Of a DNA stretch of 64,000 bases, positions 1 to 49,801 are shown in pieces (position 1 is the first letter of the stretch; each line of letters opens with the position of its first letter). Below the pieces are notes generated by a model, which saw only the letters and a program-made list of their open reading frames with translations, had not been told where the DNA came from and did not search any database. The position numbers and the translations under genes were made by a program. Source of the stretch: Zingiber officinale (taxonomy: Eukaryota; Streptophyta; Magnoliopsida; Zingiberales; Zingiberaceae); the NCBI RefSeq assembly GCF_018446385.1, contig NC_055990.1, positions 26,435,891 to 26,499,890 on the forward strand, in the 5' to 3' direction.

Positions 1-1882
1 AACGAAATATGTTTGATCGATACTCCATATTACCGGCTAAAATACTATGATTATCGACCATTTTGTTTTGCTAGTAACTCCAACTTTTCCTGTAGTGGTA
101 TCTTAAATGTATCCAATGGGTTCGTCCATAATTAATAAAAAAAGAAAGAGACTTAGAGTTAATCTTTTATGTAATCTCATCTTTATTGAAAATGCTTTAG
201 TTAATCAATTTGAAGTGTTCACTCTGGTCGTTGCATCTTTATACATATCCTTAATGACTTCAATATATTCTACGCTAATACCTTTCTTTTTTTAGAATTT
301 TTCATATAATGTTTCTTGAAATTATGTTACAAATTTTTTCTAAGTCAATAAATATCCGATGCAAATCTTGCTCTTCCTTCCGATACTTTTCGTAGCCTAA
401 GAATATATATAACTTCTATTTTCGATCTTCTATATATGAATTCAAATTGATTTTTGGTCACCGTGAACTCCTTAATTTCTTTTCTATTATTCTTTTCTAA
501 AGTTTCATTGTATGACTCATTAGTTTAATATCTTTATAGTTTTTATAATTTTGTATATCTCTCTTGTTATTATATAAGAGAACTAGAGTATTTATCTTTT
601 ATTGATCAGATTTTTTTTCTTCTATTTTTAGTTTTATGTTAAATAATTTTGTAAGTCATTTCATACCTTATTTCCATAGGACTTCCATACCTCTATCTGA
701 ACAGGGGCAGATCTAGGCAAGGGCTAGAGTGGGTTGAATGTCTCTCCAAGATCCGTCAAAGAAGGAGGAGCCATGGAAGTTGTAGTGGGCTGACTACTCT
801 CAGCCCTCACCGAGCAACGGAATCCCAGCCGTGAGTGGTGAGCCATGACCAACATCTAGGGAAATGAGGGAAGAAGAAGCTTCTGTCTTTGTTGTTCTTC
901 GTCCTTTTTTTAAAAAATTTATAAAGGAATTAGTGGATCGTTCCACTAACTCCTTATAAAATAAAAAAGGACCATCTTAATATCTTATTAACTTTACCGT
1001 CAGTAGCTATATCTGACGACCATGAGGTCCACAACCAACACTAATATGTCACCAAGTGTTAACTAATATTTCAATAAGCAATAGTCTAATAGTAATTTCA
1101 TAATTTATTAATTTAGTATTTTATCATTTTTACGATGTCGAATTGAACTTTTTGTTATTAAATATATTTATTATGTTGTAAAAAAAAAACTTGTTACCCC
1201 TCGCTAGAAATTATCTCTAAATCCGCCCCTTATTTGAATATAACTTGGTTCAACTATTTTTCCATTTTGTATCCCATTTAAAGCTTATTCTACCTCTGAA
1301 ATTTGAATTCTACGATAAAAATTTGACATACTTAAATTATCTAAGTTAAGTTGGTCACCTAAATCTTCATTAAAAAGTTGATAAAAATACCTCTTCTATC
1401 GTTCCTTTATTTCTCTATCATTTATTAGTATCTATTGTATTAATCTTTAATATATTTTATTTGGATACAATCTCTTCTCACTTTAGTTATTTTATAAATG
1501 TCTCTTTTTTCTTCTTTTAATTTATATATAATTTTTTATATAACTGTTCAAAAATTTCATTTTTTGATTCATTCACTTTCTTAGTCTCTTTCTTTAACTA
1601 TTGTATATTTTTTTTTAAGTTTGACTCGTTCTTACAAATATATAATTTTTTATCAGATATTCATTTTTCTTTCACCTTCTCTCGTACTTTTTCATTCCAC
1701 CATCAAGATTCCTTATTTGGTGATGCATGCCCTTCGACTCATCGATTACACTCTTGACTATTATTTTTAATTTTGATACAATCTTATCTCATGTTGAATT
1801 AGAGTTACCGTATATTTCACCTAATTCTTGTACTCCTATTTTCTCCTCGAATGTATTTTGTTTTCCATCTTTTAACTTTCAC
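1..1882 (-). mobile_element. RTE-type LINE, reverse-transcriptase half (window-truncated)
   Basis: Degenerate non-LTR retrotransposon read on the minus strand. Near 300-215 the complement reads ISVEYIEVIKDMYKDA, the conserved reverse-transcriptase stretch of plant RTE elements. Near 1720-1400 it reads the post-endonuclease linker, including DIYKITKVRRD. The 5' half of the same element lies at 17700-18690. Removing the L1 between them brings KWWKLK (right side) and DGKQNTFEEKIGVQELGEIYG-like sequence (left side) into one continuous reading. Many stops and frame changes make it dead. The 3' end is beyond the window edge. A MITE lies inside at 703-1230. Confidence 0.8.
703..1230. mobile_element. 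MITE-like DNA element inside the RTE LINE
   Basis: A 528-bp insertion with terminal inverted repeats: AGGGGCAGATCTAG on the left, and AGGGGCGGATTTAG as the complement of the right end. It is flanked by imperfect 8-9 bp duplications (TATCTGAAC / TATTTGAAT). No transposase is visible. Duplication length and termini fit a hAT- or Mutator-type non-autonomous element; the superfamily is unsure. The RTE reading is interrupted here. Confidence 0.7.
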
Positions 1883-2269
1883 GGAAATAGGTACATATTG
1901 TATAATATGCTTTGAGAGTGAAAACTCCCAAAGCAACATAGCATACAAAATGCCTAGGAGCTTAACCCTCTATATATGAGGTAAAGCTCCACAATCAACA
2001 CTCAATCCCTGCTTACAATCATACATCACATGGGCACATCAACCTTGCATGCAAGCAAGAGACACACACTACCAATCCACATTTGACATCATATAGACAC
2101 AAGCCCACATTGGACTTGCATTCACATCTGTAGCCTTGCATTACACGGACACCAACCAGACATGTTGGTGCTTACAAAACACGGACTACAATCATAAAAA
2201 TAAAACAACCATTACACCATATGAAACAATTATCCCCAACCAAATCGTGCTAGGCCAAGTGAGGAGCAT

Positions 2270-5140
2270 TATGCTGGCTTGATATCCACAAACCGGTGCC
2301 CTTGAATCTTAACTTTGCGAAAAATCCAATCAATATTTGGAGCAAACCCTTGGTACTGACTTCTATTGCGAGCTTTCCATATGAAATAGATCATGCTTCA
2401 GATGCTTAAGTATCGAGCATTCATTTTCCAATTGCTATCTTTGTAGTTCCGCCCAAGAACTTGTTGTAATATATCAAAGGAGTGAAAAACCTGATTGATG
2501 TCCAACCAATGCTTCACTTTACTCTACAATCCGCAAGCCATAGAGCATTCAAAGAACAAATGATGATTAGACTCTTCTTTATGCTGGCACAATATACATT
2601 CTTTATTTGACTCATATTCCATTTTATCTTTGGTTCTTAGATTATCATTTGCTAGCATCCATAAAGCGAACTAATATTTGGCATGATTTTCGGCCTCCAC
2701 ACCATCAAATTCCAAGTCACTTCCGAGCCCCTTGGCATGAATAAATGATAAGCATTTGTACTCCTTTTACTTTCCTAATGAACCAATCCATCATCATTAT
2801 ATTTGCTCTATCAACTTCATTTAAGGCTCTTAAGATTTTGTTTTGGATTTCTATAAGTCTCTTGATCAAGGGTGAATCTGAAGCATTAATTTCCCATGCC
2901 TAAAAATCAGCCCCTTTCATATAGTATTGGTGCACCCACTTAACTCATAATGAATTTATTTTAGCTTTGATATCCCATAATATTTTGCTCAACAAAGTCT
3001 CATTCCATGCAAGAAGATCTCTAAGGTCATAACCCTCATCTTGGTTTGATAGACAAATCTTTAACCAAGACATAGGTGGATGTTTTGAAGACCAAACAAA
3101 CATGAGACAAATAACTTTAATCTTATCAATTACTCCACTAGGAATTGAAAACATTGAAAGCCAAAAATATTCCATACCTTGAAAAATCGTACCCACTAAT
3201 TCCAAACGCTCGGCATATGATAAGGTATGCTTAGGCTAAACATTTATCCTTCTTGTAATAACATCTAGGAGCGACCTATAGTTAGTAATCCTGAATATTT
3301 TTCCACCGCCAATGGAATGCCCAAGTACCGGAAAGGAAAAGAACCTTCTGGGAATCCCATGAGACGAAGAAGCTGAACCTTTAATCTTACATTCACACTA
3401 GCCATATAACTTGCATTTTTTGAGGGTTTACTCGAAATCCCTCCAAAACTATCCAAACATTCTACTATATGTTGTGTAGATGATACATATGTTCAGCAAA
3501 ACAACATTAAATCATCCTCATAAATAAGATGTGTAATACCCACCTCCTTGCACATTGGATGACAATGGATGGCAAAGTGGCAATAGTCTTGAGTTTTCTT
3601 GATAGAACTTCAATGCATAGGCCGAATAGAAAAGGAGAAAGGGGATCCCCTTACCTAAGCCCTCTTTTCTCACTAAAAAATCATATATGCCACCATTTAG
3701 TGAAATTGAATAAGATACCGTAGTGACACATTCCTTGATCCAATTACAATATCGTTAGGGAAAATCAAAACCAATGAGTGCCTTCATAAGAAAGTTCCAA
3801 TCAATCATATCAAAAGTTGTCTTCAAGTCTACTTTGATCATGCATCTAGGAGAAATCTTTTTGTGTGCATACTTTTGAAGCAATTCTTGAGTTAAATATA
3901 TATTATCTCCTATAGAACGCCCCTTGATAAATGCTACTTGAGTTAGATCCAATGAGAAATCCAAGACTTCAAATAACCGACGAACAAAGATTTTTGAAAT
4001 AGCTTTATAGAACATGGTGAAACAAGAAACCGACCTATAATCTGAAACATCCATAGCATAATCTCCGTTCGGCACAAGAGAGATCAATGAGTGGTTTCAT
4101 TGCTTGAGTATCTTGCCATTTTGAAAAAAAATTCCTTTATAGCTGCAATAAAATCGTTACTAACAATATCCCAAGAAGAGGTAAAGAATTTCAAACTATA
4201 GTCATCTGGTCCCGGAGCTTTCCCACATCTAATGTCATGTAAACAGTCCTTATTTCTTCTTGGTCAACCGACTTGTATAAGTTTTCAGATTACCCCATGG
4301 TTAGCTTCCTTCCCTTGATCTTATTGCTGCCCAAGGTGTTGCATATCTCCTTTTGGCCAAGTAATGCATGAAAATAATCTACAAACTCTTCGGCTACTTC
4401 TCCTATGCTTGTAGTTTGATTTTTATTCCTTTTCTCGAGTGTTATGATTGCATTTCTTTTGTTGTTCATTTTTACCACATCATGAAAAAATTTTATACAT
4501 TTGTCCGTACTTTTCAAATAAACATTCTTCGCTAGTAGGTTGACTTTCTTTTTTATTTGAATATACTCCATAAGGGTTGGACCTCCATCTAGAATGCTTC
4601 TTTACACCTCTTCTAGTTCTACTTTTGCTCTTCTTGCTTTCTCCGAGATATACCCAAGGTGCTTCTTGTTTAGCTCCTTCAAACGACCTTTCAATCAAAA
4701 TAACTTTGTTTTAAGTATAAATTGGGTATTTCCCATTGTTGGGGCTGCCCAAGAGTCTTCTACAACCTTCTTGAAATCTTCATGCAATAACCACATGTTG
4801 AAGAATTTAAAAGCCTTAGCTAGTGTGTGCACAATGGTGCGTGACTGATTCAAGAGTTATTCGGACGCCATAAATTCCGCATAAGTATCAAAATTCATCA
4901 TCAACCAATAGGAGTTTACTAAAGCTCTATCTAACTTATAAGAAGCATTACCATTAAACCATGTAAAGCGACATTCAAGAGACTGGAGATCCACTGGACC
5001 ATAAGCTTATGCAAAAATTTACAAGTCCCTCATTTCATGATTTGTAATTGGAGATCCCTTTTGTTTTTCATGAATAGATAGAAAAGAATTAAAATCTCTC
5101 ATAATTAATCATCCATGGATCAAAAATAGTGCCTCCTATA
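2270..5140 (-). pseudogene. L1 LINE ORF2 remnant: endonuclease end, reverse transcriptase, C-terminal domain
   Basis: The complement around 5100-4850 gives the end of the endonuclease domain (SLECRFTWFNGNASYKLDRA). At 4571-4290 comes the linker before the RT. At 4087-3755 the RT reads VAFIKGRSIGDNIYLTQELL and MIKVDLKTTFDMIDW, the motif 2 and motif A regions of plant LINE RT. Near 3530-3500 the catalytic box appears as YEDDLMLF instead of the usual FADD. Near 3360-3290 the stretch GFPEGSFPFRYLGIPLAVEK is typical of the thumb region. It ends near 2270 with MIYFIWKARNRSQY and FVDIKPA followed by a stop. Several frame changes and stops mean it is not functional. Confidence 0.85.
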
Positions 5141-5148
5141 TCTGTGAG

Positions 5149-6514
5149 CAGCCCCAGTCCTAACATTCGGGAGGCTCAGGGCGAAACGATCAAAATAGGT
5201 CCTTAATTTTTTGTTTTCATAAAGTAAAGATTATTTACAATGATTTCTTCTAGCTTTTCTAGATGTAAAATCATCTATAATATTATTAATTTCAAGATTT
5301 TCTAAAATATCTTTTTCAATAGATAAAATTGCTAATCCATTCAATCTCTCTTATGACATTGTTGATCTCATGTATGTTTTTAACAATTTTAATTTTGAGT
5401 CATTTTGAGAAACTTTATTTACATGTTTACTGTATACCAACCTCTTTCGGTCTCTTATCTCTCCATTACTTAATTTTTTTAAAATAATGAGTACTTGAAA
5501 AATATCTAGAGTAATGATCAAAAGGAAATATGAGATTCATTTCCCTTATAGACCCCTTTTCAACTAAAATATTATGTGCATTATTATCAAGATTATCCCA
5601 ATTCCTTGGATTATATATATCAAGTGGAAAAATAAATTGTTTATCAATATTAGTATTCTCATTATCTACTACATTAGTAACATTTTCATGTTATCTTAAA
5701 TTATCTCTATCCTCATTAACATCATGAATTTCATTAGACTCATCATTAACATCATGAATTTCATTAAACTCCTCGTTAACATTATGTATTTCCTTAAACT
5801 CATCTATATTATCCTTATTTAAATTTTCTATATTTTCATTAGAACTTGATCTTTTAATAAAGAATTTATTAAGAGCACCTCTTTGTGATTCACTTAATTA
5901 TTCTATTTTTTTTTTCTTTTTTCACATCCAGAAATATGTTTTCTAGGCAGCATATTATAATGCACAAAATTACAATAATTGCAATACTATAATTTAAATC
6001 AACTGAAATAAAACTATAATTTAAATAAACTGGAATAATTGCACCTGGATGAAAAAGATGAGTAGATGACAACCTGCAACCGTCGCAACTCGCAAACCAC
6101 AACGCAAACAGTAGATGTTCAAAACCTTTAGGTGCAGTGTGCAGGAGGTGCTAGTGCAGCTGTGTGTAGAGAAGAGGCAAAGGCGCAACCTCACTGTGAC
6201 GCCGTCGCGGAGTCGTCGGTAGAAAGGAGAGCAAACAAAAAAGAAAGGGGAAGAGAGAAAAATGATGTAATTGTAAATAAATTCAAGAGAAAACTGAAAA
6301 ATAAAGAGAATATGAGAAAGGAGAGGTAGAAATCACAACAGCTTGTGCGGTGGCAGAGGATGTGCAACAGTGAAGGTTTACAACTATAAGTTAACTTAAT
6401 TCTCAATTAATATATGCATATATAAATTATGTAAATGTTTCAAAATTGTGGGCCCCTCCCAAACTTGGGCCCTGGGCAATCGCCCAAGATGGCCCGACCT
6501 TTGGGCCGGTGCTG
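5149..6514 (-). mobile_element. Internally deleted hAT DNA transposon
   Basis: A 1366-bp element flanked by a perfect 8-bp duplication TCTGTGAG (5141-5148 and 6515-6522), the hallmark of hAT elements. Ends are CAGCCCCAGTCC and (complement of the right end) CAGCACCGGCCC. It keeps pieces of the transposase start and end but not the middle. Inserted in the endonuclease region of the L1. The right third (6100-6380) is GC-richer and non-coding. Confidence 0.9.
5170..5890 (-). pseudogene. hAT transposase remnant (TTF zinc-finger / ZMYM1-like type)
   Basis: Read on the complement from 5890 down: a region with GALNKFFIKRSSSNENIENL, then three short repeats of NEIHDVN, then PLDIYNPRNWDNLDNNAH, then the family signature MNLIFPFDHYSRYFSSTHYF and RDRKRLVYSKHVNKVS. 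The next residues jump to the C-terminal SQERLNGLAILSIEKDILEN, which belongs to the hAT dimerisation region. The central RNase-H-like catalytic fold is missing, so this is a deletion derivative. It also carries stops. It could only be moved by a relative elsewhere. Confidence 0.85.
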
Positions 6515-6522
6515 TCTGTGAG

Positions 6523-6683
6523 TACATCATATAATGATCTCCTTGTAATAATTGAATGTAGCCCATATATGTAAGTCACCAAGAATCCACTGCTAGAAAT
6601 ATGACATCGAATATGACAATGTATATATTGATTGGTGGTTATAATAATATCCATATCAATCTTCTGCAAGTCCCAAAGAAGCA
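6523..6683 (-). pseudogene. L1 endonuclease fragment between two insertions
   Basis: A short remnant of the L1 ORF2 endonuclease left between the hAT element and the LTR element. On the complement it reads KIDMDIIITTNQYIHCHI and LVTYIYGLHSIITRRSLYDV, resembling the 'val-y-g.n....R..LW..L' stretch of plant LINE endonucleases. Continuity with 14013-14260 is restored when the LTR element and one copy of its GTATC target duplication are removed. Confidence 0.7.
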
Positions 6684-7195
6684 GTATCTGTTAGGACCAA
6701 AAGTAGCTAGAGGGGGGGTGAATAGCTCGTCGCGTTCGTTCGTTGCTCGGCGTTGCGTGGCGTTGCTTGTTTCTTCAAGAATATGCAGCGGAAAATACAG
6801 AAACAAATGCAATAACGCTAACACGGTTGGTTTACTTGGTATCCACCTCACAAGAGGTGACTAATCCAAGGATCCACACCACGCACGCACCCTCCACTAT
6901 GAAAAACACTCCTTTTCGGTAACTACCGAGGGCGGAGAAGCCCTACAAGACTCTCAGTACAAGAAGAAAGGAAAGGGAAACAAAATACAAGCGCAAAGCT
7001 TACAATGAGTACAGAAAACCCTAACCCTAGCTTCTCTTCTTGCCTTTGATCCGCCTCTTGACTTGGAAAGCTTCCAAGATCCTTCAAGAACTGGCGATCT
7101 GATCTTTGAGAGCGCTGTGGAGGAGCTGGCGAGTAATCTGGAGTGAATTGGAGAAGAGATACCGCAGCCATCGAACGCCTGCAGCTATAAACGAT

Positions 7196-7465
7196 GCCAA
7201 CGATCGGATCCCGATCGATTCGAATGTTCCCAATCGATCGGGGAGGCTTTGGATCGATCCACGGATCGATCCAGAGCGCCTCTGTGCTCTGGAAACGCGC
7301 CTGGATCGATCCACGGATCGATCCAGCGCTTATCGCGCGAAGTAGCCGCGTCCCAATCGATCCACTGATCGATTGGGACCTCTGGATCGATCCACGGATC
7401 GATCCAGAGGCTCTCTGTTCGCTGGGACAGGTCTGGATCGATCCACTGATCGATCCATCACTTGA
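7196..7465. repeat. Cluster of GGATCGATCC palindromes in the LTR
   Basis: The 12-bp perfect palindrome TGGATCGATCCA, or close variants, occurs again and again, usually in pairs separated by C(A/T)(C/G). Equivalent clusters occur at about 12940-13225, 37830-38170 and 43525-43865 in the other LTRs, and smaller ones at 9074-9256 and 39622-39795 in the element interiors. Spurious open frames rich in WIDP or DRS arise from it on both strands. Confidence 0.9.
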
Positions 7466-7534
7466 TTTTTGTCCAAAACCAAGTCCCAAACCTCCCAAAC
7501 CAGCACCCGGTCAACCTTGACCTGTTGGTATGTC

Positions 7535-8065
7535 ATGCCTAGCATCTAGTCACTCCCTTGACCTGCTAGGACTCCCTTACCAAGTGTCCGGTCAATCCCT
7601 TTGACCCACTTGGACTTTTCTCTGTGCCAAGTATCCGGTCAATCCCTTTGACCTACTTGGACTTTTCTTTCATGCCAAGTATCCAGTCAATCCTTTGACC
7701 TACTTGGACTTCCCAGCACCAGATGTCCGATCATCCTTGATCCATCTGGATTTTCCCTTGCCTGGCTTCACTCACCAGGACTTTCACCTAGCTTCACTCA
7801 CTAGGGTTTTCCATCTGCCTAGCTTCACTCACTAGGACTTTCACCTGGCTTCACTCACCAGGATTTCCATCTGCCTAGCTTCACTCACTAGGACTTTCAC
7901 CTGGCTTCACTCACCAAGATTTCCATCTGCCTAGCTTCACTCACTAGGACTTCCTTCTGCCTGGCTTCACTCACCAGGACTTTTCTTCTGCCTGGCTTCA
8001 CTCACCAGGACTTTCATACTGCCTAGCTTCACTCACTAGGTCTTTCATTTTGCCTAACATCCCAG
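7535..8065. repeat. Array of short covarying hairpins in the LTR
   Basis: Tandem units each form a short inverted repeat. Examples are CCTGG-CTTCACTCA-CCAGG, its variant CCTAG-CTTCACTCA-CTAGG, and CCAAGT...ACTTGG with an inner GGTCAA...TTGACC. The arms change together between units so that pairing is kept. The same array recurs at about 13290-13880, 38250-38670 and 43945-44370. Confidence 0.9.
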
Positions 8066-8211
8066 TTAGGACTTCCCAGTCAAGTATCCAGTCAACCTTG
8101 ACCTACTTGACTCTTCTTCAATCAATATCTTATTGTCAAACATCTAAACCCAAACCAAGACTCAGCTTGGTTACCCAGGTCAACCTTGACCTGAGGGATA
8201 TTGCACCAACA

Positions 8212-8225
8212 ATCTCCCCCTTTTT
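8212..8225 (-). promoter_or_regulatory. Polypurine tract of LTR element copy 1
   Basis: Complement reads AAAAAGGGGGAGAT directly before the 3' LTR. The same tract is at 38764-38777 in copy 2. This fixes the minus-strand orientation together with the primer site at the other end. Confidence 0.85.
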
Positions 8226-10558
8226 GATGTTTGACAATACCACTATAACACTTACAATCCCATATGTAAGTTAGGCTAATCCCATAGCCTCCTTCTTCAT
8301 GTCACTAGGTAATGAAAGCATAAATTAAGCTCTTCATTCTCCCCCTAAGAGGGCAAACTCCCTCTAGGTAATGAAAGCCTAAACTTAACCATACATTCTC
8401 CCCCTATTGGCACACATCAACCCATCGTTGGACACACATCAACCTATGCTCCAATTCTGGGCACACTTCAACAAAACCATTTGTTGAAGACTCTCCCCCT
8501 GAAGAGTTGCTCATCGTTGTTCACAACATCACTCGTTGTGATCAACACGATAATGAAGGTCCCATACCCTTCATTTATCCTTAACTTCTCCCTCAATGTA
8601 GACAACTACCCAACCTTGAGCATTATCTACCACTTGAGTGTCCACTTGAAATAATGAGGATATCCACTCCCCATTTCTCCCCATTTCAAGTTTAAATGCT
8701 CAACCTTGAGCAAGTTCACAACAGAAGGTTAACCACCTTCCAAGGTTCATGAAAAAAATAATTTTCATGTCTTTAAAGAGTCCCTCCCCCTAAAGACATG
8801 GTGGTAACTTCTGTCATTGCACCAACAATGACTTGGAATCCCTAAAACATTAGGAAACCCAAATTTAGAAGTTTTGAGGTTCAAATATTCAAAATTTGAA
8901 ACAACCTCAACCTAAACTTCTACTTAGTCTTCGTTAACCAATCCATCCTTGTTTTCAACATGAAAACACCCTTTGTATGTATACAAATGTATTTAAGGGG
9001 TTTGGAATGGTCACCTAGACTAAAAGAGGTTCAAAGTTGCTGAAATCAAGCCTTCCCAGCCAAAATCAGCAACTTGGATCGATTGGAGTTGGGTTCCAAT
9101 CGATTGAACCTTTCTGAATCGATCCACTGATCGATTCAGACTCCCTGGATCGATCGGCTGATCGATCCAGCGAGCTTCTGCTCGCGGGAATTGCCGTTTG
9201 AATCGATCCATGGATCGATTCAGGAACTCCAATCGATCCATGGATCGATCAGAGCTCTGATAGTTGCTGAAATTCCATTTCAGTCAACTTCAGAAACCCC
9301 TAGAAATTCTACAAAATCCAAAATTATGAAATTTCGTGTAGACATTATTTAGGGCATACTTAATCATGGAAAAATAGCTTTCTATGAAAATACATCATAT
9401 TTTCAAAGATTGACACAAACTTGAAAACTTGCAAAAACTTTAGTGTTTTTCTTCAAGTTTGTGTCTAACTATTCAATGGTGATTACTATCAAAAGATAGC
9501 CTTCACCAAGGTTTTCCAAAAATATTTTAAAAACATTTTCAAAACCAATATCCCATCATGTTCCTTGGGCATAATGCACATGACTTGTACATTAGCTTTC
9601 CCAATGATGGGAAAACACATAACTATGTGTTTTGATGAACCTAAAACTCAAAAGAATGCACTAAAATAACATCTTGAGTTTTGTTCATCTTCCTAACATC
9701 TCACTTGTATCTATTGTACTAAAACACATACAAGTCACCTTATAGTCTTTGTGAGATGTAGATTTTGGTTTTTGCCCTAATCTAGGGATCATGCATATTT
9801 ATCTAGGCATTTTAGAAATATTAGACATCCACCTAGGATGTCACTTGTCAATAAGTGTCGTTAAATGTCATTTGTCCTTAATTACAAGGAATTAAACTTA
9901 ATGCATGATTATGTTATGGCATACATCAAAAGAAAATAATTTTCAAAAGAAAATATCCTATTGCTACATGATGTATGAATGTCATGACATGGTATTTTTG
10001 GATTTTTCTTAATAAAACATGAATGTAAAAATAGACATGATGTCATGACATATGATGGGCAAACAATCATGGTAAGATTTAGCATAAATAAAATATACCT
10101 AGATTAACTATCTAAGTATCCTTAAAATCTTAGCTAAACTTACGACTTAAACCTAGATTGCCCTAAAGTGCTTCAAGAAAATGCCAAAACCTAAGTTGAC
10201 ATTTCTAATTTCCTTGATTAATGTATGCCAATTGAAAATAAATATATCCTCAAATGTTGGCATATTCCATTTTTCCACAAGAGTAGCACTTTTACATTAA
10301 GGCTTAGTTTGCCTTTAATTTCCTAAGAACATACCAAAATCCCAACTTGGTAGTTCTTGTGTTTTCTCACATTTGTGCCACTTTAAAATAAAATCAATAC
10401 TTCTCCAATTTGGCACATTTTACTCTTTCAAGGAGTGAATAATAATTCCATTTCATTTTCAAAGGTTAACAAAAACCTTGAAAATGCTCCTTGAGTGTCA
10501 ATTTCCTCAAAGTTGGGTTAACTACCCTTGTAATCGGAGTTGACACTCTCTAACCCAT

Positions 10559-12253
10559 CTATGGGGTAGAGAAGATGCTCCTAGGAACCCAACACCTATT
10601 GGTGCTCCTTGGATGCTCTAGGTACTCACTAGGGATAACTTCCCTAGATACCTTCCTAGTGACCTTGTTGGGCTTCTTAGAAGCCTTGGTCACACTTTCT
10701 AGGTCAACTCTAGGGATAGCCTCCCTTGTGACCTTGTTAGTGACTTTCTTAGACTTCTTAGACGTCTTAGTCACTTTGGTTGCAAAGATACTCTTAGGGA
10801 TGACTTCCCTAGTATTCTTGGCTTGACCACTAGACCTAGGGTTTGTTCCATAACTATATGGAACTCTATGGTAAGAGGGCACATCCTTCTTAGCCTTTGG
10901 TTTGTATCCCAAACCTCTATGGCCATTAGATGACCTTTGTGCTCCTAGACCTAGGCTATGCTCATTTTGCCCTTTTAGGATATTTTTCATCCTTTTTAGG
11001 GTCCTTTCCATTTTATCAAGCCTTGACCTCAAGACTTGATTTTCTATCACTAAGTCCTTAGTTTTAGATTTTTCATGAGCATTTTTGTTTCTAGGCTTGT
11101 ATCTTACATCCTTAGAGTTATCGCCTAGGTTTTTACCTACAATCCTAGCCTTAGGTGTAGTAGTTTTAGCATGAAAAGCTATATGTTTTTCTTTAACGCT
11201 ATCATGCTTTCTATTTTCATGGTAAATAGCATTAAAATGATATAAATTTGAACTATCATGCTTTTTACCATAATATAAAGGAGTAGGCTCAATAAATGTT
11301 ACCTTCTTCTTTACCTTAGAGGCTCCCTCTTGACTAGAGCTTCCTCCATGAGCCTTGACCACCTTCTTCCCCTTAGGGCATTGACTTCGGTAATGCCCCT
11401 TTAGATTACAAGAGAAGCACACGATGTGCTCCTTGCTCTTCTTTGTTCCGGGGATGGTCTCCTTGGGCTTCTCCTTGCCCTTTTGTGCCACTTTGCCCTT
11501 CTTCTTGGCCAATTTAGGGCATTTGCTCTTTTAGTGCCCACTTTCCCTACACTCAAAACATATTATATGATTTTTATTTTTAATTGAAACATTTATACCT
11601 TCTTGTATAGGGATGGCACTTGCTCCTCCATTTGATATTTCTTGAATTTCGGAGGTGGCACTATCTTCTTCTTCTTCACTTGACCCGGATGTAGAAGCTT
11701 CTCCTTCTTCTTGATCCGGCGTCACCAAAAATTGCTCCCCCTCAATCCTAGAGGTGGAGGCTTCATCATCTTGAATATGAAACAAGGAGTATGCTCCCTC
11801 CTTGTTCCCTTCGTTGCATTCCCTTGAGGATGAAGCTTCTTGGATTTCCTCTTCTTCGGAGGTTGAACATCTCTCAACCTCGGAGTCCTCCTCTTGGTCT
11901 TGATCCAATGAGTCGCCCTCTTTGGATTCTCCTTGATCTGGTACAGTGGAGGGGATCTCATGAATTCTTGCCAATTTGCTCCAAAGCTCCTTAGCATGTT
12001 CAACCTCTCCAATTTGTTCCAAGATGTTGCTTGGCAATAAATTGACCAAAAGCTTGGTCACTTTGTCATTGGCCTCACATCTTTGGATTTGGTCTTTGCT
12101 CCACTTGCTCATTTTGAGTACTTTGCCCTTGGAATTTGTGGGAGCTTCAAAACCTTCCATGAGAGCAAACCATTGCTCTATCTCCATCATAAGAAAATTT
12201 TCGATTCTTGATTTCCAAGAATCGAAGCTTGTAGATGAATATGGTGGAGCCAC
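10559..12253 (-). pseudogene. Gag remnant of LTR element copy 1
   Basis: A Copia-type gag (UBN2-like): the N-terminal region has FDSWKSRIENFLMMEIEQW and ELWSKLARIHE, followed by an acidic Ser/Glu-rich stretch, two CCHC zinc knuckles (CFECRESGH... and CFSCNLKGHYRSQC), and a long Lys/Thr-rich basic tail ending in WVPRSIFSTP. In family terms the knuckles bind the element's RNA. The reading is broken in about one place; the copy 2 homologue is at 41149-42944. The frame stops where a pol region would normally begin. Confidence 0.85.
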
Positions 12254-12407
12254 CCTTGTGTCAAATCCAAGTCCATCTTAGAATTGCATCTTGAAGTTGA
12301 GCTTGATAAAATCTTGAACTTGAAGAATTTGCTCCAACTTCTTCACCCTCTAGCTTTTCTTGATATACTTGACCCTTCCGGCGATGATTCCGGTGAAGAG
12401 CGGCCTC

Positions 12408-12419
12408 GCTCTGATACCA
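12408..12419 (-). promoter_or_regulatory. Primer-binding site, LTR element copy 1
   Basis: The complement reads TGGTATCAGAGC, the initiator tRNA-Met primer site used by most plant Copia elements, two bases inside the 5' LTR. The equivalent site in copy 2 is at 43006-43017. Confidence 0.9.
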
Positions 12420-12421
12420 CC

Positions 12422-14007
12422 TGTTAGGACCAAAAGTAGCTAGAGGGGGGGGGGTGAATAGCTCGTCGCGTTCGTTCATTGCTCGGCGTTGCGTGGCGTT
12501 GCTTGTTTCTTCAAGAATATGCAGCGGAAAATATAGAAACAAATGCAATAACGCTAACACGGTTGGTTTACTTGGTATCCACCTCACAAGAGGTGACTAA
12601 TCCAAGGATCCACACCACGCACGCACCCTCCACTATGAAAAACACTCCTTTTCGGTAACTACCGAGGGCGGAGAAGCCCTACAAGACTCTCAGTACAAGA
12701 AGAAAGGAAAGGGAAACAAAATACAAGCGCAAAGCTTACAATGAGTACAGAAAACCCTAACCCTAGCTTCTCTTCTTGCCTTTGATCCACCTCTTGACTT
12801 GGAAAGCTTCCAAGATCCTTCAAGAACTGGCGATCTGATCTTTGAGAGCGCTGTGGAGGAGCTGGCGAGTAATCTGGAGTGAATTGGAGAAGAGATACCG
12901 CAGCCATCGAACGCCTGCAGCTATAAACGATGTCAACGGTCGGATCCCGATCGATTCGAATGTTCCCAATCGATCGGGGAGGCTTTGGATCGATCCACGG
13001 ATCGATCCAGAGCGCCTCTGTGCTCTGGAAACGCGCCTGGATCGATCCACGGATCGATCCAGCGCTTATCGCGCGAAGTAGCCGCTTCCCAATCGATCCA
13101 CTGATCGATTGGGACCTCTGGATCGATCCACGGATTGATCCAGAGGCTCTCTGTTCGCTGGGACAGGTCTGGATCGATCCACTGATTGATCCAGAGCCTG
13201 GATCGATCCACTGATCGATCCAGCACTTGATTTTTATCCAAAACCAAGTCCCAAACCTCCCAAACCAGCACCCGGTCAACCTTGACCTGTTGGTATGTCA
13301 TGCCTAGCATCTAGTCACTCCCTTGACCTGCTAGGACTCCCTTACCAAGTGTCCGGTCAATCCCTTTGACCCACTTGGACTTTTCTCTGTGCCAAGTATC
13401 CGGTCAATCCCTTTGACCTACTTGGACTTTTCTTTCATGCCAAGTATCCAGTCAATCCTTTGACCTACTTGGACTTCCCAGCACCAGATGTCCGATCATC
13501 CTTGATCCATCTGGATTTTCCCTTGCCTGGCTTCACTCACCAGGACTTTCACCTAGCTTCACTCACTAGGGTTTTCCATCTGCCTAGCTTCACTCACTAG
13601 GACTTTCACCTGGCTTCACTCACCAGGATTTCCATCTGCCTAGCTTCACTCACTAGGACTTTCACCTGACTTCACTCATCAAGATTTCCATCTGCCTAGC
13701 TTCACTTACTAGGACTTCCTTCTGCCTGGCTTCACTCACCAGGACTTTTCTTCTGCCTGGCTTCACTCACCAGGACTTTTCTTCTGCCTGGCTTCACTCA
13801 CCAGGACTTTCATACTGCCTAGCTTCACTCACTAGGTCTTTCATTTTGCCTAACATCCCAGTTAGGACTTCCCAGTCAAGTATCCAGTCAACCTTGACCT
13901 ACTTGACTCTTCTTCAATCAATATCTTATTGTCAAACATCTAAACCCAAACCAAGACTCAGCTTGGTTACCCAGGTCAACCTTGACCTGAGGGATATTGC
14001 ACCAACA
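12422..14007 (-). repeat. 5' LTR of gag-only element copy 1
   Basis: 1586-bp LTR (5' LTR in element orientation), nearly identical to 6689-8211 but longer by one hairpin unit and by extra palindrome sequence. The G run here is 10 bases. Confidence 0.9.
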
Positions 14008-14012
14008 GTATC

Positions 14013-14640
14013 CACCATGGTTAAAGAAATCAAAATTATATGCATGACCCATATCTGAAAACCTTTTTTTGCAATGTTGGACCTAAAAAATTTTCATTGA
14101 GCTTTGTCTTCATTAATGTCATAACTTGAATATCTTTTTGTTGGAGAAGGTGTTATACTCCTCCATGTTTTAGGGACTTAAGGAAGCCCCTTACATTTCA
14201 AGAATCAACATTTATTTACGATCATTGCGGACAGCTCACACCCGTGGTTGTCTTATGCTCCTAGGCATAGGAGTTGTTTCTTCTGTCAGTTCCTTTGCAC
14301 TCGAAGAAGTTGTTGTAGTAAGGGAGGATGTTGAGGCCTCTTATGTGGAGCATAAGGTTATACTTGCTGTTGTGTCTAAGGAAGAAGATGAGCATCCTAA
14401 CTCGGACGGTGCAGGCTGGCCTATGCCATCCTCTGACTGGCTTGGTATGTTTCCATTTGCTTTCTGATTTGGCTTAACCTGTTGAGGTATATTCTGATTT
14501 GTTGCTTCATCACCTCCATGTGTCACTTCTTCACATTCAAGGGGAGGTACCACAACTATCAGAATAAGGCTATTGACAACCACAATTGCCAGATTATTTG
14601 TTGCCACTGAAACCTTCACATTTGTCCTCTATTGGGTCGG
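14013..14640 (-). pseudogene. L1 ORF2 start (endonuclease) and ORF1/ORF2 junction
   Basis: On the complement, 14215-14050 reads NVRGFLKSLKHGGV and DIQVMTLMKTKLNENFLG, the start of the plant L1 AP-endonuclease domain ('WN-RGL-...-D-..l-ETK'). 14640-14260 is the linker between ORF1 and ORF2. Degenerate, and continues past the LTR element at 6523-6683. Confidence 0.75.
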
Positions 14641-37331: not shown

Positions 37332-38763
37332 TGTTAGGACCAAAAGTAGCTAGAGGGGGGGGGGGGGGGGGGGGGGAATAGCTTGTCGCGTGCTCGTTGC
37401 TCGGTGTTGCTTATTTCTTCAAGAATGCGCAGCGGAAAATACATAAACACACACAAACACGCTAACACTAGGAGTTTACTTGGTATCCATCTCCAACGGA
37501 GATGACTAATCCAAGGATCCACACCACGCACGCACCCTCCATTATGAAAACACTCCTTTTCGGTAACTACCGAGGGCGGAGAAGCCCTACAAGACTCTCA
37601 GTACAAGAAGAAGTAAGGGTAGTAAAGAATAAGCAAAAGCTTACAAGAAATGCAGTAAAAACCCTAGCTTCTTCTTCTTCTCGTTGCAACTCGCCTCTTG
37701 ACTTGGATGAGCCTCCAAGAACCTTCAAGAACTGGCGGTGAGGAGCTTAGAGAGTGCTGGGGAGGAGCTGTGTTGAATCTGGAAGGAATCGCACGCCAAC
37801 AGCTATAAACGACGCCAACGGTCGAATCCCAATCGATTGGATTGCTCCCAATCGATCGGGGAGGCTTTGGATCGATCCACGGATCGATCCGAGCTTCTGA
37901 TCGAAACCCGGATCGATCCACGCTTATCGCGCGAAGCAGCAGCGTCCCAATCGATCCACTGATCGATTGGGACCTCTGGATCGATCCACGGATCGATCCA
38001 GAGGGGTTCTGTTCGCGGGGACTCACCGGATCGATCGGCGGATCGATCCAAATCTTCTGGATCGATCCACTGATCGATCCAGATCTGCTGGATCGATCCA
38101 CGGATCGATCCAAACCTGCTGGATCAATCCACGGATCAATCCAAACCTGCTGGATCAATCCACGGATCAATTCAAACCTTGGTTTTTGCCCAAAACCAAG
38201 TCCAAAGCCCCCTAAACCAACATCTAGTCAACCATGACTTGTTGGTACATAAGACCTAGCATCCGGTCACCCTTGACCAACTAGGACTCTCTCACCAAGT
38301 GTCTGGTCAATCCCTTTGACCCACTTGGACTTTTCTCTTCTTGCCAAGTATCCGGTCAGTCCCTCTGACCTACTTGGACTTTCACCAGATGTCTGATCAA
38401 CCTTGACCCATCTGGATTTCTCTTGCCTGGCTTCACTCACCAGGACTTTTCCAATTGCCTAGCTTCACTCACTAGGTCTTTCACCTGGCTTCACTCACCA
38501 GGATTTTCCTCCTGCCTAGCTTCACTCACTAGGACTTCCCAATTGCCTAGCTTCACTCACTAGGTCTTTCACCTGGCTTCACTCACCAGGATTTTCCTCC
38601 TGCCTAGCTTCACTCACTAGGACTTCCCAGTCAAGTATCCGGTCATCCTTGACCTACTTGACTCTTCTTCAATCAACCTTGCATTGTCAAACATCGAAAC
38701 CCAAACCAAGACTCAAGCTTGGTCAACCAGGTCAACCTTGACCTGAGGGATGTTGCACCAACA
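37332..38763 (-). repeat. 3' LTR of gag-only element copy 2
   Basis: 1432-bp LTR with a 22-base G run at 37355-37376, palindrome cluster 37830-38170, and hairpin array about 38250-38670. Confidence 0.9.
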
Positions 38764-43019: not shown

Positions 43020-44456
43020 TGTTAGGACCAAAAGTAGCTAGAGGGGGGGGTGAATAGCTCGTCGCATGCTCGTTGCTCGGTGTTGCTTATTTCTTCAAGA
43101 ATGCGCAGCGGAAAATACATAAACACACACAAACACGCTAACACTAGGAGTTTACTTGGTATCCATCTCCAACGGAGATGACTAATCCAAGGATCCACAC
43201 CACGCACGCACCCTCCACTATGAAAACACTCCTTTTCGGTAACTACCGAGAGCGGAGAAGCCCTACAAGACTCTCAGTACAAGAAGAAGTAAGGGTAGTA
43301 AAGAATAAGCAAAAGCTTACAAGAAATGCAGTAAAAACCCTAGCTTCTTCTTCTTCTCGTTGCAACTCGCCTCTTGACTTGGATGAGCCTCCAAGAACCT
43401 TCAAGAACTGGCGGTGAGGAGCTTAGAGAGTGCTGGGGAGGAGCTGTGTTGAATCTGGAATGAATTGGTGAAGTTCTGCCGAAGGAATCGCACGCCAACA
43501 GCTATAAACGACGCCAACGGTCGAATCCCAATCGATTGGATTGCTCCCAATCGATCGGGGAGGCTTTGGATCGATCCACGGATCGATCCAGAGCGTCTCT
43601 GGGATCGATCCATGGATCGATCCAGCGCTTATCGCGCGAAGCAGCAGCGTCCCAATCGATCCACTGATCGATTGGGACCTCTGGATCGATCCAGAGGGGT
43701 TCTGTTCGCGGGGACTCACCGGATCGATCGGCGGATCGATCCAAATCTTCTGGATCGATCCACTGATCGATCCAGATCTGCTGGATCGATCCACGGATCG
43801 ATCCAAACCTGCTGGATCAATCCACGGATCAATCCAAACCTGCTGGATCAATCCACGGATCAATTCAAACCTTGGTTTTTGCCCAAAACCAAGTCCAAAG
43901 CCCCCTAAACCAACATCTAGTCAACCATGACTTGTTGGTACATAAGACCTAGCATCCGGTCACCCTTGACCAACTAGGACTCTCTCACCAAGTGTCTGGT
44001 CAATCCCTTTGACCCACTTGGACTTTTCTCTTCTTGCCAAGTATCCGGTCAGTCCCTCTGACCTACTTGGACTTTCACCAGATGTCTGATCAACCTTGAC
44101 CCATCTGGATTTCTCTTGCCTGGCTTCACTCACTAGGACTTTTCCAATTGCCTAGCTTCACTCACTAGGTCTTTCACCTGGCTTCACTCACCAGGATTTT
44201 CCTCCTGCCTAGCTTCACTCACTAGGACTTCCCAATTGCCTAGCTTCACTCACTAGGTCTTTCACCTGGCTTCACTCACCAGGATTTTCCTCCTGCCTAG
44301 CTTCACTCACTAGGACTTCCCAGTCAAGTATCCGGTCATCCTTGACCTACTTGACTCTTCTTCAATCAACCTTGCATTGTCAAACATCGAAACCCAAACC
44401 AAGACTCAAGCTTGGTCAACCAGGTCAACCTTGACCTGAGGGATGTTGCACCAACA
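43020..44456 (-). repeat. 5' LTR of gag-only element copy 2
   Basis: 1437-bp LTR, nearly identical to 37332-38763 apart from a G run of 8 and insertions or losses of palindrome units near 43580-43740. Confidence 0.9.
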
Positions 44457-44461
44457 TTCAT

Positions 44462-44839
44462 GCCCAAAAAAGGCAAGTGAAGCTGCTAAGCAACGAGTTG
44501 TCTCAGCTGAAAATCTTGAGTATTACGTTTGCTGTTAGCGCCATCAACTCCATCTGCATCTTCAATGCAATTCACTCGAACTACGGTATCTAACATCAAC
44601 ACTCCTCCGAACTCCAAAGAAGTGTTGACGATAAGCACAAAAATGTGAAAATGCCCTATTAACAGGATCCTACATGACGGCTTCACGTCGATGGAAGGAG
44701 ATTCATTAGGAGCATAAGTGCTATGTATGGCGGGGCGAACATAGATGATGCATTTCTTGGTATTCAAACCCTGCCCACCATATGTGTGCCAAGGCTTGGG
44801 CAAAGCACAAGATTTGCATAAGAGTTGAGATGCACTATT
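44462..44839 (-). other. Unrecognised sequence with a 105-aa open frame
   Basis: An open frame at 44486-44803 (minus) starts MPKPWHTYGGQGLNTKK. I do not recognise the protein. It follows directly on the LTR element's target site, has no visible partner exons, and could be chance or the remains of an older repeat. Confidence 0.25.
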
Positions 44840-45412
44840 TAGGGTTGTAAATGATCTAAACGTTCGCGAATAAGTTTAGTGTTCAGTTTGGTAAGAACTT
44901 GTTTATGTTCGTTCAATATACACAAGATCAATTGAATAAATAAGTTTGAACATCTCGTTAAACTAAACAAACAAACTTGAACACATATGTGTTCAGCTTG
45001 TTAATATTCGTGAATAACGTTCGTGAATAATGTTCACAAACTATGTTTATTAATAAAACTCTTATCAATATGTTAAATAAATAAATAAAATAAATAAATA
45101 GTTTGAATTATCAAGCTCAATAGTCAATCAAATAATAAAAGTTTTAAACGATCAAACAAACTTAAATTGAGAGTTTGATAATATTTAAACTAATTAAGCT
45201 TGAACCAAACTTGAACCAAGTTTAAGCTAACCTTGAATTGAGAACTCGATAACGTTTAAATTAACTAAGCTCAAGCTTATAAAAATAAACCAAAACAAGT
45301 TTGAACAATCATTTCAAAAGCTTAGTTTATTTTAAATTCGACTCGACTTAACTTGATTAGTTTATCAAACAAGCTTGAATACCTCTAAGCTCGGCTTGTT
45401 TACTGCCCACTA
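44840..45412. mobile_element. Probable MITE related to the 16256-16754 type
   Basis: Left end TAGGGTTGTAAATGATC and complement of the right end TAGTGGGCAGTAAACAAGC are similar inverted ends. The inside is rich in GAACTTG/CAAGCTT-type words that fold back. No convincing flanking duplication was found, so the boundaries are approximate. Confidence 0.55.
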
Positions 45413-45589
45413 ATATTATAAACTATGAGGGAAAATATAGTCATTCAAAACAAGAAATAAATAAAATGTGGGGGCAAAATGAAATTTTCATATGTAATTT
45501 TCTTCAAAATCAACCTCTATCAAAAGGACGGTTTGGGAATAAGGCATCGAAATATTTTGAAATAATATATTGACATTTAAAAATAAGAA

Positions 45590-46419
45590 TTAGTGTAAAT
45601 AAATATATATAAAACCTTTATTATACCCAAAAACACGAATAGATGTCATGATTCCAAGGAACATATTTTTTCAGCCAAAAATAATAGACTGACAATTTTC
45701 AAATGATATTGAAATTCAAACGATATTTCTACAATTTATGGGTGGAAATGAAATTCTCCGTGGAGATTTACACATAGCACGTGTGACGAGCTCACCGATT
45801 TGGGAGATGCGTCTTAAATTTAAACGAGCCCTTTTCCCGCTCAAATCATCCCAAAAATTCCACATTCCTGTCGACATGGCGCAGCGTTAAGGTGTAGCAG
45901 AGCCAAAGAAAGTATTACGCTTCGATCCTCTATTAGAACATGTGTTGATACTGAATTTAATAACAAAACTTAGGTTGAAGGTTCGTGGGCCAAAGTATCA
46001 TGGATGAAAAAGGTCCATGAGTTCACAAAAAGTGTTGAGCATCCAGATGATGCAGAGAAGAGTGATTAGCGGTTTGTGGATGAGGTAATAGATATTTGTG
46101 GATTTGCTATACGAGCCTTATCAAGCTTTGCAAATGACGGAGAAGACTGTGACATTGTTGTTCTTTTCCTCGAAACTCTTCCTGGAGAACCAAATTATGT
46201 ATGTCCTTTTAAAAAGAAATAAAAAATCATGCATACACTTTGCGGTTTGCTTAATCCCATTGTCCTGTTTAGTTCTCGTCATTAATTTTTAAAATTCAAT
46301 AGGAGGTGCGCAAGCCTATTGTCTTATCTCTTCCACCCTCAGACATGGCACCTGAGGCTATCATCACATCAACCCTTAATGTTAGTGTACAGTCAATATT
46401 CAAGATAAAGAGATATTTG
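45590..46419 (+). pseudogene. CAP-G pseudogene, 5' part (promoter, exon 2-3 remnants)
   Basis: A broken copy of the condensin gene at 60833. 45600-45860 matches the CAP-G promoter (shared GATTTGGGAGATGCGTCTTA and TTTTCCCGCTCAAATC). Most of exon 1 is gone. 46040-46200 resembles exon 2 (GCAAATGACGGAGAAGAC, CTTCCTGGAGAA), and 46303-46388 resembles exon 3. At about 46388 the sequence jumps from exon 3 directly into intron 5 of the parent (parent 62683). Frames are not open. The rest continues at 56118-56940, after the Gypsy element. Confidence 0.85.
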
Positions 46420-46424
46420 ATTAG

Positions 46425-48803
46425 TGAGCCTATCAGAAATTTGAGAAGACGGAACCATAGTTTGTAGAATCACGATCCTACGCAGAATCGATTTAGGGTC
46501 AGAATTAGATCGGTCAGGATCGGATCGTAGAATCGTACGATCCTATCAAAAAACCTTAAAATCTTATCATACATGATTAATAATTAGAAAAAATACATAA
46601 GAAACTCATTTACATATAAATAAATAACTAATTTTGTATATATATGCAATCATTTACACTCAATACCTCAAATTACATTGTACATATACAAATTTAAATT
46701 AACTTGTAATTCAACTATCATTTTCGCATAATAATAATATTTATATTTTCATATCATAAAATGAAAGAATATAAAATTTCTATTAACACAATAATAATAA
46801 CACATTAATGTTAAAAATATTTCCTTGGTTTATAAGATAATTCAATTTAAAGGCTAACAAAACACCTAACGTATATAACATAAACTATTAAAACGCCTTG
46901 AAATAATCTTCTAAAGAATGGTTGATGCCACACAATACTAGACAATAGGCATCCAAAAACTCATTATCTTGGAGAAAAGAAATGACAAAATATTATTGAT
47001 AAAAAACTAACTCAAAAATAATTAAACATATGTTTGAATAATTTAAAACCCTAATAAGATGAAAAGCATATAATAAAAAAAAGATAAAATCTTTTAGACA
47101 TCCGAAAAGGATTTAAATGATATTTGTTGGATTTGAAATAGGGTGGTTAAGGATAAACTTTGAAATTTATTAAAGATCTCTGAAAGAGCTTTGATTTGAT
47201 ATATTATAGGCCTCGTGGTTCAATCCGAGTCAAAAGTTATGACTTCTCAAAGCTTCCACCGATCCTGCTCCGATCCTACCGATTCTGTTCCGATCCTACC
47301 GATCCTACTGCGATCCTACTGCAAAAATGATTCTACACGATCTTGGATCGATTTTGGGTTTCCGGATCGTAGGATCGTACGATCCTATGATCCAGATCAT
47401 GATTTTGCAAACTATGGACAGAACTGTCGGTGTGATGTAGCTGGAATGCTGACTAAGTCGCCATACTCCATAGGTGGAGGGTATGATGAGCTGTCTTCTA
47501 TGTTGACTAAGTCGTTATAAGGCCTCTGGTCAACAATACCTGCAAACAGCGATCGGGTTGCCCTGGTTGCTGGGAACCCGATGCTTGCGGCGAGTCCCAC
47601 GAATATATAAGGAACATGTTAATAGTAGAATTATGAAATAAATAAACAATGAGTACAGTAACGTACCTTGGCCCTCTGGTAGACTGATGAGCTGGTCGTA
47701 ACGCTTGATCCGTAGGAGCAGATGGAGATGATGAGCTTTCTCAGGTTAACCTCCTCTGATATAAAAATATAATGACGAATATAAATGTCATATATGAAAA
47801 GGGAAGCATTAGCTTCCCTACACCTTGGCTCGCGAGAGCGGGACTTTATATAGCATGAAGGGTCGGACTGGATAGAGAACTGAGTCAACACGAAGCCCGA
47901 GGAAATGTAGGGCTGAAGGCCACGTGGAGGTAAGGAGCTGGAACATATCAACGGCTCAAAGATTGGAACCACATTGGCTCACCTGCCGGCCGGACACCAC
48001 CTCGGCTCACAGGGCGGTCACCACATCGACTTGAAGGCCGGAGCAAATAAACAACACGGAGTCGGAACAAGCGGTACAAAGCCGAAGCGAACCAGGTGGT
48101 ATAGCGCTAAAATGGAATAGGGACAGTAGGCAAGTCTAAGAACCTAGGCTACGGCTGCCCGAAGGGTGGAGGCTATGGAGGAGGTGGAGGCGGTAGTCGC
48201 TGGAGGCCTCATTCGTTGAGGGAGAAAGCCGCTGGAGACGACATCGCTGGAGAGGCCCCTAGGTGGCTGACAGAAGCTACTGGAGGTGTACCAGAGGCGG
48301 CGGTGCATGAGCTACATGGTCCGATCGATGGAGAAGACGACGCTAGGGGTAGATGACGAAGGAGGCGAGGTGGGGGAGCAGTGCTTGGCCGCTGGATGTG
48401 ATGGCTGCTGCTAGGGAGAGAGGAAGAGAGGAGAGGGGTGGTCTGGTCACGGAGGTGGCAGACATCGACGTCGGACGGCTTCGAAGGCGGCGCTCAGGAG
48501 AGTGAGGTAGTCTTCTTCAGCGTGAGGTGACGACGCTGGAAAAATGCGAAGAAGTGAGAGAGAGAGAGAGAGAGAGACATATGAGGTTTCCGGCGAGGTG
48601 GCGACGAGAGCCTCCGGGGAGGAGACACTGAACGGGGGCAGCGACGTGCGTGCCTCATGGTTGTGGCGGCGGTAAAAAATATGAAGCCTTCCCTTCTGTC
48701 ATCCATGCCAAAGACCTAAAGGGAGGATGCACAGTAAAATGATAAAAATACCCCTCCTCTTAATTCCTTATTCCTTTTAACCCCACATAATATATCTATA
48801 TCA
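46425..48803 (-). repeat. 3' LTR of the Gypsy-type element (contains a MITE)
   Basis: Matches 54700-56117 once the MITE at 46456-47416 and one 8-bp duplication are subtracted. It contains a (GA)n run near 48555-48579. Confidence 0.85.
46456..47416. mobile_element. hAT-type MITE inside the Gypsy LTR
   Basis: 961-bp insertion with inverted ends CATAGTTTGTAGAATCA (left) and CATAGTTTGCAAAATCA (complement of the right end). Flanked by 8-bp duplications GACGGAAC / GACAGAAC with one mismatch. Subterminal GATCGTACGATCCTA-type palindromes occur at both ends. Absent from the other LTR, which proves insertion after the Gypsy element. No coding capacity. Confidence 0.9.
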
Positions 48804-49796: not shown

Positions 49797-49801
49797 TAGA
49801 G

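Follow-up and report, generated by a model that had tools for sequence, protein, structure and literature searches.

The window analysed here, 64,000 nucleotides of the Zingiber officinale genome (contig NC_055990.1, positions 26,435,891 to 26,499,890 of the forward strand), holds two related LTR elements, both on the minus strand and each with an internal domain of ~4.2 kb. The 3′ LTR of element 1 spans 6689-8211 (minus strand; TGTTGG...CTAACA in sense, with edges read from the sequence) and its 5′ LTR 12422-14007 (minus strand), and the target-site duplication GTATC stands at 6684-6688 and 14008-14012. Element 2 has its 3′ LTR at 37332-38763 and its 5′ LTR at 43020-44456, both on the minus strand, with the target-site duplication TTCAT on both sides. 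The coding content of element 1, which our ORF list covered, consists of gag remnants only. These are a gag fragment at 11531-12253 (minus strand) with a weak Retrotran_gag_2 match (E 2e-4, under the Pfam cut-off) and an ORF with a CCHC zinc knuckle at 10559-11512 (minus strand); a second knuckle-like motif at 11560 is interrupted by a stop codon. No pol ORF was present among ORFs of at least 90 aa in 6500-14300, the element 1 region. A non-coding linker domain occupies 8212-10558 (minus strand).

Read in sense, the LTRs carry a hairpin array in their upstream part, then a second palindrome array, a TATA-like hexamer and ~500 bp without clear hairpin excess. Both arrays lie within the U3 half, upstream of the TATA-like site (TTTATA in sense, 7186-7191, minus strand, with a putative promoter role; at 37804 in element 2), and are built of dyad-symmetric units, many of them with two inverted TTGAC(C/T)-like sites as their core. 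In bulged units, a 7-bp outer stem is combined with an inner GGTCA/TGACC stem and with a 3-base bulge whose side is constant; simple units have 5-bp arms flanking CTTCACTCA. In the 3′ LTR of element 1, the bulged units H1 (7499-7529, ACCAGCA..TGTTGGT, inner GGTCA..TGACC), H2 (7538-7570, CCTAGCA..TGCTAGG) and H3 (7580-7613, CCAAGTG..CACTTGG, inner GGTCAA..TTGACC) are followed by two H4 units (7627-7707, starting at 7627 and 7675, CCAAGTA..TACTTGG), an H5 unit (7719-7749, CCAGATG..CATCTGG, inner GATCA..TGATC), ten CTTCACTCA hairpin units (7761-8040; arms CCTGG/CCAGG or CCTAG/CTAGG, perfect over 5 bp in 9/10), a CCTAAC..GTTAGG unit read directly (8053-8070) and a terminal bulged unit (8080-8110, TCAAGTA..TACTTGA). 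The stretch under study, 7535-8065, takes in most of the CCTAAC..GTTAGG unit and is flanked by one bulged unit per side, at 7499 and 8080. The second array, of the GGATCGATCC/CAATCGAT type, occupies 7230-7470; its arms reach ~15 bp by eye, and a regular expression finds five ATCGAT pairs in the LTR at 6689-8211.

An earlier note on this DNA had described small inverted-repeat units with matching arms, several with an inner GGTCA..TGACC stem, and units of this kind, inner stem included, do recur both at 7499-8110 and in each of the three remaining LTRs. Its 'dozens of units' apply to the four LTRs combined; the single LTR at 6689-8211 has 18 hairpin units, GATC palindromes being extra. As it also stated, the arrays recur in all four LTRs with changes in unit number: CTTCACTCA units count 10, 11, 7 and 7 (perfect in 9, 10, 7 and 6) and bulged outer-plus-inner units 7, 7, 6 and 6. 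The regular expression returned 8, 8, 7 and 7 bulged units, and the last match of each LTR (TGGTTAC or TGGTCAA with TGAGGGA) was excluded from the count, being the GGTCAA/TTGACC palindrome of the LTR end, whose outer arms do not pair. In element 2, at 38121-38171, CG to CA changes in both halves have turned some GATC palindromes into GGATCAATCC direct repeats. These repeats, in tandem and with the dyad broken, are a counter-example to strict upkeep.

Perfect inverted 7-mers exceed dinucleotide shuffles 28-fold in the 3′ LTR U3 of element 1 and 27-fold in that of element 2; for the linker the factor is ~11, and for the gag region 5 to 9. Elsewhere it is 1.0 in the flank 1-6600 and 1.4 in 14100-37300; three of the four other stretches tested lie at 1.0- to 1.7-fold, and 44500-52400 at 3.7-fold. 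Folding beyond shuffles likewise extends throughout U3 and the linker and, to a lesser degree, the gag region, but not to R-U5 nor to most of the remaining window. Inverted 7-mers cluster at 50500-51500, which has 50 of the 106 in 44500-52400 and overlaps a 149-bp tandem repeat at 50962-51239. A 61-bp unit is repeated in tandem, in ~17 copies, at 52527-53580.

Sireviruses are marked by a polypurine tract (PPT) octamer with further copies, a primer-binding site (PBS) with a gap, a C-rich signal, an inverted repeat at the PPT and palindromic repeats upstream of TATA (PMC2829016). In both elements the PPT octamer AGGGGGAG starts 10 bp upstream of the 3′ LTR and joins it by an AT/TG junction (8214-8221, minus strand, in element 1). 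Each element has five octamer copies within 0.57 kb of the 3′ LTR, the additional ones of element 1 starting at 8339, 8398, 8493 and 8784, with 1 and 2 outlying copies at about 3.1-3.6 kb; the published elements have several identical octamers in the linker, mostly at ≤0.5 kb from the 3′ LTR (PMC2829016). The PBS TATCAGAGC stands five bases past the 5′ LTR (12408-12416, minus strand, in element 1), and the published gap of ATTGG or AGTGG (PMC2829016) is matched exactly by AGTGG in element 2 and, with one base off, by GGTGG in element 1. CACCCCCCCTCTAG and a longer C run, read by inspection close to where the LTRs end in sense, fit the C-rich integrase signal placed ~21 bp from the LTR end (PMC2829016). 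An inverted repeat at the terminal PPT, TATTGTCAAACATC/GATGTTTGACAATA, was recognised by eye. In element 1, four bases separate its left arm from the octamer and the right arm starts ~67 bp into the LTR, and in the published elements the right arm lies on average 28 bp inside (PMC2829016).

At least eight palindromic repeats upstream of TATA, with a CGG-CCG core except in Tnd-1, were described for Sireviruses, and palindromic motifs occurred in 13 elements of the set; hence not all Sireviruses have them (PMC2829016). The elements in the window share with these LTRs high-copy, dyad-symmetric palindromes that lie mostly in the upper LTR half, upstream of TATA. Their palindromes are abundant, with cores of ATCGAT and TTGACC types, not CGG-CCG; CGGTC..GACCG occurs in sister loci. 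The ATCGAT core resembles Tnd-1 ACAATCGATTGT, and CGGTC..GACCG of the sister LTR families resembles Osr8 CGGTCAGACCG (PMC2829016). Unlike the published elements, which have one consensus motif each with copies 66.5-100% identical, the ginger LTRs contain additional classes, namely TTGACC-cored bulged units and units of the CTTCACTCA and CCTAAC types, with arms that are diverse and covary; none of these classes is among the 13 motifs tabled in that source (PMC2829016).

Because most of the published Sirevirus marks are present and palindromes in Sirevirus LTRs have already been described, this layout belongs to a known type, of which it is a variant. The contention that no named plant LTR family has this layout was hence wrong in kind (PMC2829016). 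What appears to be new is the number of palindrome classes, the covariation of arms and the extension of dyads across the linker; no report of covarying arms in such LTRs was found in the open-access literature searched. A study of maize Sirevirus palindromes (Genome Res 26:226) is reportedly a follow-up on Sirevirus LTR palindromes. In maize, Copia elements have their predicted hairpins concentrated in the LTRs, and palindrome-rich Sirevirus LTRs have been discussed as control regions and small-RNA sources (PMC10760457, which cites the maize Sirevirus study). Most Amomum genomes analysed, from the ginger family, have SIRE as their prevalent Copia lineage (PMC11066291). The elements can also be likened to TR-GAG and LARD-type non-autonomous LTR elements: LTRs, PBS, PPT and gag-related ORFs are common to them, and no pol ORF was found among the ORFs listed. 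They differ from these in the ~4.2 kb internal domain and a linker unusually rich in inverted repeats. A Retrozyme is an LTR element with a hammerhead ribozyme; this identity was rejected, as a gathering-level Rfam scan of 6 of the 168 fetched loci gave no hammerhead, and the same scan returned no match to any ribozyme or known RNA family. Taken together, we consider the two elements to be probably (at a probability of roughly 0.55) non-autonomous, gag-only, Sirevirus-type (Copia) LTR elements, in which the array is an enlarged version of the Sirevirus palindromic cis-regulatory region.

In the whole genome, CTTCACTCA units with arms CCTGG/CCAGG occur 110,714 times, CCTAG/CTAGG 99,394, CCTGG/CTAGG 4,783 and CCTAG/CCAGG 7,846, so that 94.3% of the 222,737 exact units are paired (odds ratio 293); allelic copies are counted twice in this census if the assembly contains both haplotypes. 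The published haplotype-resolved ginger assembly is nanopore-based, with a size of 3.09-3.1 Gb and a scaffold N50 of 141.27 Mb (PMC8342452). The bulged-unit core GTCACTCCNTTGACC occurs 26,139 times, compared with 11 for its reversed control. From the counts of this core and of the CTTCACTCA units, the family is therefore very abundant.

Covariation was also surveyed in 168 fetched loci, in which a pattern blind to the outer arms found 964 bulged units. The pattern constrains the inner stem and fixes the side of the bulge, and many loci came from similarity searches and are thus a non-random sample; only 40 loci (L069-L108) were picked regardless of arms, via the H2 core. Among the 964 units the inner pair was GGTCA/TGACC in 648 and GATCA/TGATC, itself a paired change, in 97. 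The outer arms formed 153 distinct pairs, and the 62 present in at least two loci paired at a mean of 4.90 of 7 positions versus 2.72 with shuffled partners (maximum 3.31). Ten of these 62 were perfect types on a common bulge and inner stem, compared with a shuffled mean of 2.0 and maximum of 8. The unrelated GATC and GGTC palindromes of the same U3 are two further covarying classes: pairing just outside the core was 0.87 versus 0.59 shuffled (maximum 0.67), and at the fourth position of GGTC palindromes 0.70 versus 0.32 (maximum 0.47). Units multiply in tandem, and arms across units and families remain largely Watson-Crick complementary despite their differing sequence.

Homologous changes at H1-H3 were followed in an alignment of 118 distinct rows, after 5 of 171 sequences were dropped because H1-H3 was not covered, 7 of 127 distinct rows were dropped for more than four gaps, and two misaligned rows (L157 and L167), which gave false terminal double changes, were removed. 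Rows with double changes that preserve pairing numbered 66 against 8-9 under the nulls (maximum 43; reached in 0/1000), and the 3,974 paired cells were reached in 0 and 1 of 1000 under two nulls. However, pairs with any double change were not in excess of the tree-based nulls (6 versus 4, 206/1000, or 3.6, 114/1000); with L157 and L167 kept, pairs with at least two such rows numbered 5 versus 2.6 (84/1000). The six pairs comprise one in the H1 outer stem (C:G/T:A, 20 rows), one in the H1 inner stem (G:C/A:T, 11 rows), three in H2 (C:G/T:A in 18 rows, and two changes each confined to one row, of which the one in L055 is a transversion pair) and one in H3 (C:G/T:A, 15 rows). Independent homologous double changes are few at H1-H3, and their broad spread is inheritance.

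Between the internal domains of the two elements, which are 90.5% identical, double changes that preserve pairing numbered 10 versus 1.4 expected (0/2000) with element 1 stems, 8 of the 10 in the non-coding part, and weakly, 5 versus 1.9 (77/2000), with element 2 stems. Paired positions were 93.2% identical compared with 88.5% for unpaired ones, and in one hairpin two adjacent pairs were jointly changed (8450-8451 with 8431-8432). When 18 pairs of LTR mates were compared for change after insertion, 1,532 pairs had 56 single changes and 5 double ones, 3 of which still pair; misalignment at ends and changes in unit number make these figures uninformative, and the lower rate at paired sites is given no weight. 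The census, the ten perfect outer-arm types, the homologous H1-H3 changes and the internal domain all bear out the earlier observation that arms change together. A compensatory excess was seen by rows (66 versus 9) and with element 1 stems, not by the number of pairs (6 versus 4), and weakly with element 2 stems.

Paired changes in repeat arrays alone are no proof of a selected RNA structure, and amplification explains a good deal of the pattern. Of the 187 simple units in the 40 arm-blind loci, 141 show one of the two main paired states; when 129 units were counted more narrowly, 115 had these states and none was mixed. The state tracks the preceding spacer (P = 2e-8), four spacer combinations holding both states, and the CTTCACTCA alternation is on this account largely an amplification of two states. 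The alternation of CCTGG/CCAGG with CCTAG/CTAGG noticed earlier is genuine in that paired states dominate, and for the most part it reflects the copying of two old states; neither the diversity of bulged arms nor the changes of the internal domain can be accounted for in this way. That amplification of a few ancestral units explains the whole, with pairing never kept up, agrees with these proportions and with the H1-H3 pair number (6 versus 4 or 3.6), but it is quite improbable in view of the ten perfectly paired outer-arm types, the 66 double-changed rows, the covarying GATC/GGTC flanks and the internal double changes, which lie beyond the U3 arrays. As sole explanation it is already hard to hold.

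If an RNA is maintained because of its fold, G-U pairs would be expected on one of the strands. Fold z-scores against shuffles were −3.93 in sense and −4.12 in antisense for U3, −2.88 and −3.08 for the linker, −1.92 and −1.93 for gag, and −0.40 and −1.13 for R-U5, with no strand preference in U3, linker or gag. Equal folding of the two strands in U3 is as expected of Watson-Crick dyads, not of RNA with G-U pairs, and folding without strand preference leaves selection on RNA unproven. The earlier proposition that structure rather than sequence is kept is partly supported, in that the arms covary; upkeep of an RNA structure is not. Among mixed units of the census, the sense G-U form exceeds the A-C form by 7,846 to 4,783 (1.64:1); the internal domain shows a similar lean in its single changes, 24 to 17, or 34 to 20 with element 2 stems, all of these being raw counts uncorrected for inheritance or mutation bias. 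H1-H3 changes to the sense G-U versus A-C form were 12:7 on internal and 47:24 on terminal branches in the 118 rows. Since the lean is equally present on both kinds of branch (13:6 and 47:26 before cleaning), it looks mutational, and we rejected this asymmetry at H1-H3 as a sign of RNA selection.

Different parts of the units change at different depths of the tree. Internal and terminal branches carry 14 and 53 changes in inner stems, 11 and 31 in bulges, 29 and 63 in outer stems, 17 and 26 in loops and 41 and 49 in spacers, terminal counts taking in sequencing errors. The branch ratio of inner stems differs from that of spacers (P = 0.0014); for outer stems P was 0.067 against spacers and 0.44 against loops. 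Bulges were noted to change more than any other part on terminal branches, probably a CpG effect. The TTGACC-like sites of inner stems are what we take to be the WRKY box, and W-box hexamers TTGAC(C/T) number 15, 15, 11 and 11 in the four U3s versus shuffle means of 1.2-1.6. From their sequence, the inner TTGACC pairs are putative enhancer sites of WRKY type; such a role would account for inner stems being the part that changes least along lineages, and the branch pattern would fit such sites together with weaker constraint on the outer arms. The outer arms may be matched partly through amplification of few dyads and partly because mismatched arms were matched anew. This re-matching would come either from selection for the dyad, acting on a DNA site or on a hairpin of the transcript, or from template switching at hairpins while the element is reverse-transcribed or replicated. 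An enhancer role in U3 leaves the 11-fold inverted repeats of the linker and the 5- to 9-fold ones of gag unexplained, and the sense G-U excess in the census and in internal single changes leans towards sense RNA, against a view in terms of DNA dyads.

Selection on the transcript would mean that hairpins of the linker and of U3, at the genomic RNA's 3′ end, persist because they serve packaging, stability or evasion of silencing, with arms that compensate to maintain the fold. The internal double changes, which include transversion pairs, the higher identity of paired positions, the excess fold along the whole element except R-U5 and the somewhat more frequent sense G-U intermediates would all agree with this. 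We nevertheless regard it as unlikely, given that fold z-scores are equal between strands in U3, linker and gag, with little-structured R-U5 weaker in sense, that the G-U bias at H1-H3 looks mutational and that element 2 stems give a weak excess. Mutation might instead suffice, if hairpin template switching copies one arm as the complement of the other and palindromes arise and are perfected without use, a mechanism published for RNA genes (PMC8794818). Such switching predicts perfect arms and simultaneous paired changes; the part of that source consulted describes it for RNA genes, not LTR elements (PMC8794818). The equality of strands in folding, the occurrence of dyads in the linker as well as in sequence classes that are unrelated, and the joint change of 8450-8451 with 8431-8432 speak for it, yet a general form of the process should touch other elements, and the effect is absent from three of the four other stretches tested. 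Moreover, on internal branches conservation is higher in inner stems than in spacers, and loops and the 3-base bulge hold one orientation. Loop inversion is a known companion of template switching, and exact CTTCACTCA-type motifs in both orientations within one locus were seen in 0/108 loci; hence loop inversion was not seen. Mutation alone is accordingly a doubtful, though conceivable, explanation. Overall, dyads at the DNA level with correction by template switching are somewhat more likely than selection on folded RNA.

A wider proposal is that these elements belong to a non-autonomous Sirevirus-type lineage whose U3, linker and part of the gag region are near-continuous local hairpins, with arms that evolve by paired change and R-U5 spared, and that selection or a lineage-specific copying process acts for ordered structure. 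We put this forward only tentatively; if true, the very many unit copies would allow compensatory evolution to be watched at very high replication. The ~223,000 exact CTTCACTCA units, with mixed-arm intermediates in thousands, are in any case an unusually large natural experiment on arm matching, which bears on whether selection or template switching keeps hairpin arms matched.

Sister LTR families around L108 and L094 have 40 scored copies each, 97-100% identical to the query, and several copies stand in pairs at a distance of ~5.1-5.5 kb. This is suggestive of recent bursts of elements that are short and probably non-autonomous. Many of the loci L039-L068, and L087 and L102, show single-base losses at CCAGG/CCGG-like sites (CGGG for CCAGG; CCGTCAA for CCGGTCAA), occasionally several within one LTR. 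Loci L039-L068, including L055, were selected by a first pattern with spacing one base short, which favoured units with losses, and they are included in the H1-H3, outer-arm and GATC/GGTC counts. Because the assembly is nanopore-based (PMC8342452), these losses are possibly base-calling errors linked to methylation.
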